A stretch of DNA of 35,156 nt from Lentisphaerota bacterium (GTDB lineage: Bacteria; Verrucomicrobiota; Lentisphaeria; Oligosphaerales; PUNB01): positions 1-35,156 of the forward strand of contig PUNB01000122.1 of the NCBI GenBank assembly GCA_003552565.1, written 5' to 3'. The translations under genes and the position numbers were made by a program. The notes beneath the pieces are model-generated. The model was not told the origin of the DNA. It worked only from the letters and a program-made list of their open reading frames with translations, and made no database searches. Shown here in pieces: positions 6,019 through 26,790 of the stretch; position 1 is the stretch's first letter, and the number at the start of each line of letters is the position of its first letter.

Positions 6019-6176
6019 CTAGACCCCGTCCGAAAAGGGCTCCCGCTTTTTTCGGCGATCTTCCGGTTTTCCGAGGAAAACCGTTAGCTTACGGCTAGCG
6101 ATTTCCCTCGGAAAACCGAAATTTCATCCGAAACAAGCGGGAGCATGGGTGCGATACCTTTCCGGGGTCAGACTAA
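6019..6176 (+). mobile_element. MITE-like palindromic element, interior type i
   Basis: Ends GACTAGACCCCGTCCGAAAAGGG / CCTTTCCGGGGTCAGACTA; long hairpin ggctcccgcttttttcgg...ccgaaacaagcgggagc; interior shared (inverted) with 23105-23356. Confidence 0.8.
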
Positions 6177-6850: not shown

Positions 6851-6922
6851 AGACTTGTTGAATGGTTTCGGGGTCAGGTTTTCGGGTTTGAAGGCTGGAA
6901 CCTGAAACCACGAAGTCTCATA
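6851..6922. repeat. Repeat family C (CCTGAAACC(TGAAACC)ACGAAGTCTCA), copy 1
   Basis: TGAGACTT...AAGTCTCA inverted ends; GGAACCTGAAACCACGAAGTCTCAT matches 19210-19247. Confidence 0.65.
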
Positions 6923-11852: not shown

Positions 11853-12058
11853 TGTTTCATGCGAATATGCGTATAAACTAATAGATGATTCTGGTTTTGC
11901 AAACGCAATCAATGATTTTTTTTTAATTAGCGCCAATTCGCGTCCATTGGCGGTTCAAAAGTGTAAACAGTTTCCATCTTTCACTGACGCATTACTGAAA
12001 ATGTTCAACTATAGGGGAAGTTTTGGATCATTATGATATATTAATTTTGTCAATCTAC

Positions 12059-12251
12059 GAGCTAGACCCCGTCCGGAAAGGGGTAGTATGCCGAATTTGT
12101 GCTGAAAAAACCTTGTCTCGAACCTTGTCCCGAACCAAAATCCGATTGGTTTTAATGTTTTCATCCCAAATGGAATATGGTTCGGGACAAGGTTCGGGAC
12201 AAAGTTGAACTCAAAACACACAATACACCTTTCCGGATACCCTCGAGCTAG
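12059..12251 (+). mobile_element. MITE-like element, interior type iii
   Basis: GAGCTAGACCCCGTCCGGAAAGG ... CCTTTCCGGATACCCTCGAGCTAG; internal arms gaaccttgtcccgaacc / ggttcgggacaaggttc. Confidence 0.8.
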
Positions 12252-12438
12252 ACCCTCCGCGAAAAGGGTTCGGAAACGAGATTAAGGCGAAAGATTAGGT
12301 CAAAAGATTAAGGGGCGCACCCGTTTTTCCCTAATCTTTCGTCATAATCTTTCGCCTTAAGTCAATTGGCCGTGAAACGCACAGCCACTTTCGAGCATGT
12401 GAGCTCCACAAAACCCTTTTCGTTTAGCCTCGAGCTAG
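12245..12438 (+). mobile_element. MITE-like element, interior type ii (copy 1)
   Basis: GAGCTAGACCCTCCGCGAAAAGGG...CCCTTTTCGTTTAGCCTCGAGCTAG; perfect arms ttaaggcgaaagatta / taatctttcgccttaa. Confidence 0.85.
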
Positions 12439-12532
12439 AGGGTATGCGAAAAGGTATATTGTGTGTTTTCGAGACAAGGTTCTCGGCAGCACAATTTCCG
12501 CTCACAACCCTTTTCGCGGAGGGTCGAGCTAG
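12432..12532 (-). mobile_element. MITE-like element, shortened interior type iii in reverse orientation
   Basis: GAGCTAGAGGGTATGCGAAAAGG...CCCTTTTCGCGGAGGGTCGAGCTAG; reverse complement shares gaa(a/t)ttgtgctg...aaccttgtctcga and aaaacacacaataYacctttYcgS with 12059-12251. Confidence 0.75.
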
Positions 12533-12598
12533 CGCTTAGTTGCAGAAATCAAACGACGCATGGCATTATATTACAATTAAGCCCCAGGAGCAGGGATT

Positions 12599-13444
12599 TT
12601 GCACAATCAACAAGACAGTCAATTAACCACCAGATCTTTCAGAAACCGGCTATGGCAGGGCAGATTTCTTTCCCATTCATCAATTCTACAATGGCTGCTG
12701 GATGGAGGCGATCCGATGATTCTGGGCACCGGCAACGGGGCGGTGCTGAAAGTGGAGGGAGACGGCCTTTGCATGCGTCTGGACAGTGTTGGGGAAAGCC
12801 GAGTCGCTCTGTCCCGCCCCTTGTTTTTCAAACGGCATTGCCGAGCCGGCAGTATCGCCTGGTGCAAAAGAGCTGTGGGCTGGCACGGTGCGGTCTGGAT
12901 GTGGCAGGCGGCCTGGAAAATGCGGCGGCTGAATATACCCGCACCTGAACCGAATGGTTACTTGGATCCGACTTTTCAAAATCCTGGCGCCTGCAGTTTT
13001 TTCTGGAGCGAATGGGTCGAGCCGGCTTTGACTCTTCGGCAAATGGCCGAAGCTCCGAAGACTCGCGACCAAGTGATAAACAGCCAGAAACTGCCGATAC
13101 AAGCGGGGGATATTCTGGCCCGCCTGCATAATCATGGACTATACCACCGTGACACCAGCTGGAAAAACTTCCTGCTCAACCCGGAAACAGAACAACTGCT
13201 GCTGGTCGATATAGACGGAGTGAACAGAGGCGGCATCCGCCCCGAGACGGCGGCCGTCCGGGACATAGCCCGTTTTTTGACTGACGCGGTAATCAGCGAA
13301 GCCGATGCCTCCTGGATGCAACTGCTGCTGACGCATTACGCGACATGCCGGCAAATCCCCTTAAGTAAAATAAAATCCCCGCTTGAAGAAAAACTCAATC
13401 AATTCCTGGGACGTAAAGGCTGGTATAATGAACAGGAAAGATAA
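12599..13444 (+). CDS. Lipopolysaccharide (Kdo/WaaP) kinase-family protein
   Basis: Kinase-like ILARLHNHGLYHRDTSWKNFLLNP and LLLVDIDGV; TTG start with upstream ccaggag. Confidence 0.7.
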   Translation: MHNQQDSQLTTRSFRNRLWQGRFLSHSSILQWLLDGGDPMILGTGNGAVLKVEGDGLCMRLDSVGESRVALSRPLFFKRHCRAGSIAWCKRAVGWHGAVWMWQAAWKMRRLNIPAPEPNGYLDPTFQNPGACSFFWSEWVEPALTLRQMAEAPKTRDQVINSQKLPIQAGDILARLHNHGLYHRDTSWKNFLLNPETEQLLLVDIDGVNRGGIRPETAAVRDIARFLTDAVISEADASWMQLLLTHYATCRQIPLSKIKSPLEEKLNQFLGRKGWYNEQER

Positions 13445-14318: not shown

Positions 14319-14505
14319 CTAGACCCCATGCGGAAAGGGTTCGGAAACGAGATTAAGACGAAAGGTTAGGGCAAAAGGTTAAGGGGCGCACCCGTTCTTC
14401 CCTAATCTTTCGTCATAATCTTTCGCCTTAATCCAATTGGGCGTGGAACGCACAGCCACTTTCGAGCTTGTGAACTCCAAAAAACCCTTTTCGCATAACC
14501 TCTAG
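14319..14505 (+). mobile_element. MITE-like element, interior type ii (copy 2)
   Basis: CTAGACCCCATGCGGAAAGGGTTCGGAAACGAGATTAAG...; nearly the same interior as 12245-12438; right end CCCTTTTCGCATAACCTCTAG. Confidence 0.85.
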
Positions 14506-14510
14506 TCTCT

Positions 14511-14527
14511 GACCCTCCGCGAAAAGG
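14511..14527 (+). mobile_element. Solo element end adjoining copy 2
   Basis: gaccctccgcgaaaagg, identical to the left end at 12252, with no partner end found nearby. Confidence 0.55.
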
Positions 14528-14683: not shown

Positions 14684-15349
14684 ATGATAAACATCATAAT
14701 TGACGACCGCGAACATGGCTCGGGAGTGGCGGAACATTTGGAGAATTATTCATCCGAAGCGACAGTGGAATGCAGAAGGATGAAAACCGGCGATTATCTG
14801 ATACAGCCTGGCTCTGTTATGGTTGAGCGCAAAACTGTTGATGATTTATGTGTTTCCATCATTGACGGCCGCCTTTTTCGCCAGTGCCGCTTTCTCGTCG
14901 CTGCTTCGGATTGTCCATTGCTGTTGATCGAGGGTAATTTGCAAGAGCGAACCGTGGCCGTTGAAGATACTGCCCTGCGGGGAGCTCTGCTTTGTTTGGC
15001 GCAGATATTCCATCTTCCGGCGATTTACTCCCGTGGCCCACGGGATACCGCTGCCGCTTTGGTACAGCTTGGACGTCAGCGGATGAATCGGACAAATTAT
15101 CAGCATTGGCGCTCCGGGAGGTGTCCGAAAAACTTAATCCGGCAAAAGCTGCATGTACTGCAGGCGCTGCCGGGGGTTGGGCCGGGTCTGGCCCGAAAAA
15201 TGCTGGAATGTTTAGGTTCGGTCCGGTCGGTTTTCAGCGCCAGTCAGGAAGAACTGCAGTCAATCGAGGGAATCGGCTCCAGGCGCGCCGCTCGTATCTC
15301 GGAAGTCATAGGTGCGAGCGGGCCTCCGAATAGGGATCTGAATCCGTGA
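14684..15349 (+). CDS. XPF/ERCC4-type nuclease domain with C-terminal helix-hairpin-helix
   Basis: IIIDDRE, VMVERKTVDDLCVSIIDGRLFRQ (ERKxxxD), LPGVGPGLARKML and IEGIGSRRAARI HhH motifs. Confidence 0.88.
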   Translation: MINIIIDDREHGSGVAEHLENYSSEATVECRRMKTGDYLIQPGSVMVERKTVDDLCVSIIDGRLFRQCRFLVAASDCPLLLIEGNLQERTVAVEDTALRGALLCLAQIFHLPAIYSRGPRDTAAALVQLGRQRMNRTNYQHWRSGRCPKNLIRQKLHVLQALPGVGPGLARKMLECLGSVRSVFSASQEELQSIEGIGSRRAARISEVIGASGPPNRDLNP

Positions 15350-19209: not shown

Positions 19210-19247
19210 GTGAGACTTCGTGGTTTCAGGTTTCAGTGTTCAGGTCT
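19210..19247 (-). repeat. Repeat family C, copy 2
   Basis: gtgagacttcgtggtttcaggtttcagtgttcaggtct, directly after the ppx stop codon. Confidence 0.65.
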
Positions 19248-21854: not shown

Positions 21855-22029
21855 CTAGACCCTATGCGAAAAGGATCTTGTGGAGCTCTCAAGCTCGAAA
21901 GTGACTGCGCGTTCCACGGCCAATTGGATTAAGGCGAAAGATTGTGACGAAAGATTAGGGGGAGAACGGGTGCGCTCCTTAATCTTTCGCCTTAATCTCG
22001 TTTCCGACCCCTTTCCGGACGGAGTCTAG
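21855..22029 (-). mobile_element. MITE-like element, interior type ii (copy 3, reverse)
   Basis: CTAGACCCTATGCGAAAAGG...CCCCTTTCCGGACGGAGTCTAG; interior is the reverse complement of copies at 12245 and 14319. Confidence 0.85.
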
Positions 22030-23104: not shown

Positions 23105-23356
23105 GAGTTAGACCCTATGCGAAAAGGTATCGCACCCATGCTCCCGCTTGTTTCGGATGAGATTTCGGTTTTCCTCGGAAAACCGGAAGATCGCCGAAAC
23201 AAGCGGGAGCCTTATCGGGTAGGGGTGCGGCGGGGCGTCTCCGGTTTTTATGCCGCAAGTCATTAGCGCTGAGGCTGGTAACTGACGGAACAAAAACCGG
23301 ATCAGACCTGCCGGCGCTCCCAACAAGGGCGTGAGACCTTTTCGCATAAGCTCGAG
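23105..23356 (+). mobile_element. MITE-like element, interior type i (second copy, inverted interior plus extra palindromic segment)
   Basis: GAGTTAGACCCTATGCGAAAAGG...CCTTTTCGCATAAGCTCGAG; gctcccgcttgtttcgg / ccgaaacaagcgggagc arms; second IR tccggttttt / aaaaaccgga. Confidence 0.8.
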
Positions 23357-26566: not shown

Positions 26567-26731
26567 GGGGGTAAGAAAGCGATTAAGTGTTTAGAAGAGA
26601 AGCGTGGAGAACATGACACTTAATCCCGCACTTCATCGCACACGTAAGCCCACGCTTAAACTATCTGCTTCGTCGGTATTGGGCATGAAGAAGATCAACA
26701 ATATACCCACAAATACCGCTGACGAGGCAAA
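26567..26731 (+). repeat. Intergenic repeat family D, copy 2
   Basis: Same element as 2676-2839 in opposite orientation; internal IRs attaagtgt/acacttaat, aagcgtgg/cccacgctt and gcttcgtc(.)ggtatt/aatacc(.)gacgaggc. Confidence 0.8.
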
Positions 26732-26744
26732 AAAAAGAGTTTTG

Positions 26745-26790
26745 TGAAACCCTAGAAACCTGACACCTGAAACCTGAAACCAAGCTGCTA
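26745..26790 (+). repeat. Repeat family C, copy 3
   Basis: gaaaccctagaaacctgacacctgaaacctgaaacc. Confidence 0.55.

Follow-up and report, generated by a model that had tools for sequence, protein, structure and literature searches.

The 474-bp interval at positions 12059-12532 of a 35,156-nucleotide contig from a Lentisphaerota bacterium (the whole stretch that was analysed, here called the window) very probably consists of three MITEs that arrived by successive insertions at one genomic GAGCTA, each beside an existing end. Two divergent genes, metK (11776-10580, minus strand) and a Kdo/WaaP-like kinase gene (12599-13444, plus strand), enclose the interval, which has the layout GAGCTA[180]GAGCTA[181]GAGCTA[88, reversed]GAGCTA. 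Its four identical target-site duplications lie on the plus strand at 12059-12064, 12245-12250, 12432-12437 and 12526-12531, the last followed by flanking gcgctt. A sequence-only reading had placed GAGCTAG at 12059, 12245, 12432 and 12526 and had described three units joined end to end; these are indeed the only copies in the window, and the border-to-border distances of 186, 187 and 94 bp are accounted for by elements of 180, 181 and 88 bp, each with one 6-bp border added. The shared border, read at that stage as seven bases long, does recur at every junction, but the repeated part is six bases long, GAGCTA: in three copies the closing G already opens the element that follows, and in the fourth copy it belongs to flanking DNA.

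The number of GAGCTAG copies is unremarkable by itself (2.1 were expected, and at least four occurred in 16 of 100 shuffles), and it is their placement that carries the argument. Each is the exact border of a repeat family with more than 100 end matches per strand genome-wide. When the 501-bp stretch 12040-12540 was compared with the window's genome, 117 matches were returned, the only full-length one being the window itself (the others covered one unit, part of one, or a two-unit junction).

The three units are MITEs with ends 5'-GACCCYRTSCGRAAAGG and 5'-GAGGSTATSCGRAAAGG. MITE 1 (12065-12244, plus strand, 180 bp; left end GACCCCGTCCGGAAAGG, right end as reverse complement GAGGGTATCCGGAAAGG) belongs to the TTCGGGACAAGG-interior subfamily (type iii) and contains a long internal palindrome, while MITE 2 (12251-12431, plus strand, 181 bp; left end GACCCTCCGCGAAAAGG, right end as reverse complement GAGGCTAAACGAAAAGG) is of the GATTAAGGCGAA-interior subfamily (type ii). 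MITE 3 (12438-12525, minus strand, 88 bp) is a shortened, reversed member of the MITE 1 subfamily. Subfamily membership thus agrees with the unit types and orientations assigned from the letters, and the third unit has, as then proposed, lost its central stem and about half its length; we add that both of its ends are intact. The TTCGGGACAAGG-interior subfamily has 36 copies (including units 1 and 3) and the GATTAAGGCGAA-interior subfamily 32 (including unit 2). The predicted hairpins of MITE 1 and MITE 2 are very stable (z = -9.3 and z = -6.6, respectively).

Related copies lie elsewhere in the window. A single GATTAAGGCGAA-type element of 181 bp (14322-14502, plus strand) is an 89% copy of MITE 2, with a further end from about 14511, and another of this type (21858-22026, minus strand, 169 bp) is flanked by TCGCTA and TAGGTA. 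A single related element of 152 bp (6022-6173, plus strand) has flanks TGACTA and AGACTA (a five-of-six match), and a related 243-bp element (23111-23353, plus strand) has a third kind of interior and flanks GAGTTA and GAGACA. The end near 14511 is adjoined by a gene for a small ERCC4 (XPF-type) nuclease with a helix-hairpin-helix domain (14684-15349). The window also contains a separate repeat of about 160 bp, inverted and 85-89% identical between 2675-2835 and 26585-26731, without MITE ends, as well as short repeats with the unit CCTGAAAC (6889-6920, 19211-19242 and 26758-26782).

The MITE interiors (12109-12206 and 12282-12360; also the G006 loci, L010) are long palindromes of units of about 12-13 nt (ACCTTGTCCCGA; AGATTAAGGCGAA), and the unit ACCTTGTCCCGA recurs many times in G006. 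A locus in a Kiritimatiellae MAG (L074) has a similar GATTAAGGCGAAAGATT interior behind the same ends as the window MITEs, and other relatives (L052, L086, L053, L058-L087) combine these ends with very different interiors, some of them simple tandem repeats (GGACAAGTC; GGGAATCGA). Palindromes of the AACCACGAA type are also among the relatives' interiors, and this variety looks as though a single set of ends had taken up many repeats. An element type of 240-285 bp with a GCTACCCTCAGCG-like interior (L224, L225, L215 and window positions 23111-23353) is present in two or more families of the order, and could be an older or structured-RNA-like member.

We determined the exact ends of the elements across the window's own genome assembly (2.09 Mb, 275 contigs, 86% complete), in which the end pattern has 115 plus-strand and 114 minus-strand matches, compared to 7 and 6 for a reversed-pattern control. 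DNA was taken around approximately 100 places matching the ends or the array, and opposite ends were paired into elements. This yielded 82 distinct elements, mostly 80-270 bp long, non-coding and bounded by paired inverted ends, the features that define MITEs. For 76 paired elements, left and right flanks matched at an alignment length of 8 only (z = 11.9), with all z values below 2 at lengths 2-7 and 9-12. Within these eight positions only the inner six covary; the core is preceded by G in 70 of 76 elements and followed by C in 73 of 76. Since the terminal bases are fixed whatever the site and the inner six covary, an element begins with G and ends with C, and the duplication measures 6 bp. 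An 8-bp duplication fits the same register, yet its outer positions, 1 and 8, show no covariation and correspond to the fixed terminal C and G; a 4-bp duplication of CTAG was likewise rejected, as no other flank register matches.

The flank consensus is palindromic, C-TAGCTA-G, giving TAGCTA as the duplication consensus (the left-flank consensus is biased, as the search pattern required YTAG, and the right flank also shows TAGCTA). Among single elements, perfect duplications were present in 14 of 68 and five-of-six matches in a further 15 (1.1 and 5.5, respectively, in shuffles), while about 25 of the 68 matched at three or fewer of six flank positions and had no clear duplication. By exact-pattern scanning the ends were also located in named Kiritimatiellae, Lentisphaerae and Verrucomicrobia MAGs, along with a few records labelled otherwise, and several of these genomes contain perfect 6-bp duplications at the same ends (TAATTA, TATCTA, TACCTA, TCGTTA and TGGTTA).

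Stacking of elements is a habit of the family. Neighbouring ends in the DNA taken were spaced exactly 6 bp apart in 34 pairs, compared to 9 pairs at all other spacings in the range -5 to 60. Among pattern-found ends only (loci fetched with a junction-spanning query were left out), 31 of 135 (23%) had another end exactly 6 bp outside, with 0-2 at the other tested offsets. The junction 6-mer varies by site (TAGTTA, TAGCTA, TAACTA, AACCTA and others), indicating that GAGCTA is the target of this site rather than a border motif of the family. This bears on whether GAGCTAG was a pre-existing target or duplicated sequence, a question raised with the original observation: it is the site's own target, duplicated, and other arrays also break at a 6-bp border with a different 6-mer per site. 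One of these, a second array at locus L008, carries TAGTTA three times. In several two-element arrays one of the three borders departs from the 6-mer that the other two have in common, a sign that decay or recombination also acts on the family.

Insertion next to an existing end, which the sequence-only reading had offered as one of two routes, is supported by the 6-bp duplication, by the matching 6-mers that flank single elements elsewhere and by the four borders, which are identical although units 1 and 2 differ in subfamily and unit 3 is reversed. We propose that an ISNCY/ISDol1-like DDE transposase, supplied in trans, would recognise the 17-bp ends GA-NNNN-RTSCGRAAAGG, make target cuts staggered by 6 bp at sites like the palindrome C-TAGCTA-G, and join the element, which after repair would have an identical 6-mer on either side. 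Every insertion would remake the target beside the element, whose terminal G or C would complete the outer base of the preferred 8-mer, so that the next element could land flush against the previous one. The order of the three insertions and this biochemistry are inferred. An empty site was not found in the DNA taken, where the only matches were within arrays or at same-type junctions, nor by orthology of the metK-WaaP region: the WaaP-like protein had no close homologue in the order (best match 1.6e-7, over part of the protein).

The frequency of stacking may also carry information on target choice. Under a position-independent border model, which is crude, about 3% of the intergenic target weight in the genome falls on existing borders, a value that including the flanking C/G would perhaps double. 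The observed 23% of ends with a 6-bp neighbour is several-fold above the prediction from target-sequence preference. We tentatively suggest, at somewhat under even odds, that ISNCY/ISDol1-like transposases actively choose the borders of their own elements, with MITEs and ISs building arrays at reusable landing pads. Such a choice might operate by recognition of an existing end or by preference for the 8-bp site that an element's terminal base completes.

An alternative route to the same layout is homologous or illegitimate recombination (deletion, inversion or unequal crossing-over) between the ends of elements inserted at different places. Near-identical ends could recombine, the two flanks disagree in about a third of single copies, and in several other arrays one outer border differs from the rest (TAGGAA/TAGGAA/TAGATA, AACCTA/AACCTA/ATGGAG and GCACTA/AAGCTA/AAGCTA). 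However, recombinants between sites would join different 6-mers, and here all four are GAGCTA, a 6-mer present at only 8 of 308 borders; nor would simple tandem duplication give units 1 and 2 of different subfamilies and a reversed unit 3. We therefore regard recombination as an unlikely origin of this array. Recombination between borders, the second route originally suggested, is not needed here, though it may act in arrays whose outer border differs.

Two further explanations have very little probability. The contiguity of the 474 bp and the same 6-mer at both bounds might suggest a single composite element moving as one unit, but the whole genome has no second full match (the others being single units, parts of them, or one-junction alignments), and the unit types of the array occur singly elsewhere, so the interval is not one invariant unit. 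Palindromic, intergenic, CTAG-flanked elements in a genome that encodes five Y1_Tnp proteins also recall REP-like or single-strand elements, which Y1 (RAYT or IS200-IS605) transposases move beside CTAG without target duplication. No such ends lie near any of the five Y1_Tnp loci, and the clear 6-bp duplication, together with the DDE transposase of complete ISs that carry the same ends, largely refutes this explanation, which we consider scarcely credible.

Sequential insertion is further informed by these complete ISs. They were reached through an unknown protein that starts 281 bp downstream of a MITE-type end. The complete copies, in relatives, are 1.9-2.0 kb long, encode a DDE transposase of 530-550 aa, and have the same ends as the MITEs and duplications of 6-7 bp. 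Two 1894-bp copies have TAGCTA (L251) and TAGAAA (L254) on both sides, and a 1938-bp copy (L242) has the 7-bp duplication TAAGTTA. A fourth, of 1986 bp (L244), lies between flanks TAAGTA and TATGTA and has ends GACCCCGTCC and GAGGGCGTCC (GACCCC / GAGGGC), with a CCC/GGG asymmetry as in the MITEs. L245 has the same ends, with flanks that do not match. L242, L244, L251 and L254 are, in relatives, the autonomous partners with the same ends and duplication that are expected of a MITE family.

The partner transposase matches DDE_Tnp_1 (PF01609; 1.1e-11), and its best NCBIfam model is ISNCY_1 (NF033593; 1.4e-63) at 215 bits, which is below the cut-off of 325 (ISRm17 itself scores 524). Candidate catalytic residues D191, D414 and E466 are invariant in the alignment with ISRm17-type relatives. 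The window genome's own assembly (86% complete, 275 contigs) contains no homologue of this transposase and no PF01609 (DDE_Tnp_1) or PF00665 (rve) protein. We therefore infer mobilisation in trans, with an ISNCY/ISDol1-like transposase as the probable mover of these MITE copies.

The MITE family of Kiritimatiellae, Lentisphaerae, Verrucomicrobia and some neighbours has apparently not been described so far. Viral contigs had no exact match to two end patterns, the window array had no match in plasmids and phages, no Rfam family reached its gathering score, and a literature search returned no paper naming the family (weak evidence of novelty). For this family a kind of transposase can now be named, and both the ends and the target duplication are defined exactly.

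Known systems share some of these traits. IS481 makes a 6-bp duplication at NCTAGN, a likeness to the six-base duplication at a palindromic, CTAG-containing site seen here. We rejected it as the source, since the own genome has no rve protein, the partner belongs to DDE_Tnp_1, and the core is TAGCTA. The IS1202 family, which was split from ISNCY after formerly sharing its category, also shows targeted insertion, but it has TGT...ACA ends, targets dif sites and makes duplications of 3-5, >15 or 0 bp (PMC10132070); the ends here begin with GA and the duplication is 6 bp, which excludes membership. BrickBuilt of Porphyromonas gingivalis, a MITE with a minisatellite, resembles the window MITEs in being short, non-coding and present in several copies per genome, and in its terminal inverted repeats and internal repeated units, but it has a 23-nt direct minisatellite and inconsistent duplications (PMC4596501), in contrast to palindromes of approximately 12-13-nt units and a regular 6-bp duplication here.

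The closest comparison is with ISRm17, placed in the ISDol1 group of ISNCY (PMC10194956). The nearest annotated plasmid relatives of the partner transposase are rhizobial ISNCY transposases including ISRm17 (25-28% identity). The ends of ISRm17 (GTGCCCGTCCATAAAC) resemble those of the partner IS (GACCCCGTCCAAAAAGG). ISRm17 of Sinorhizobium and Rhizobium plasmids is a complete 1.66-kb IS with a 444-aa transposase, a TAGNCTA target and a 7-bp duplication, whereas the window elements are MITEs with a partner transposase of 530-550 aa and mostly 6-bp duplications. Target duplications in the ISNCY/ISDol1 group are 6-7 bp, and both lengths were observed (6 bp in partners L251 and L254, 7 bp in partner L242 and in ISRm17 arrays).

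ISRm17-type elements also form tandem arrays that carry the same 7-mer at their borders, like the common 6-mer of the window array, though they consist of same-type copies in one orientation whereas the window array mixes subfamilies and orientation. Three tandem elements on S. meliloti pHRC017 have the borders TAGACTA, TAGTCTA, TAGACTA and TAGACTA, in tandem pairs on other plasmids all three borders read TAGTCTA (L281) or TAGACTA (L284), and an ISRm17-type junction query was at least 80% covered in 10 plasmid records. Some borders in arrays L279 and L283 are TAGACTA and others its reverse complement TAGTCTA, a mix that direct duplications alone would not yield. Because rhizobial arrays show a common duplication, stacking extends beyond this genome to the group related to the partner IS. 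Stacking in one target is therefore a habit common to a little-studied IS group, from MITEs of PVC bacteria to rhizobial ISRm17-type elements, and a transposase's preference for the border of its own element becomes a testable question in culturable Sinorhizobium.
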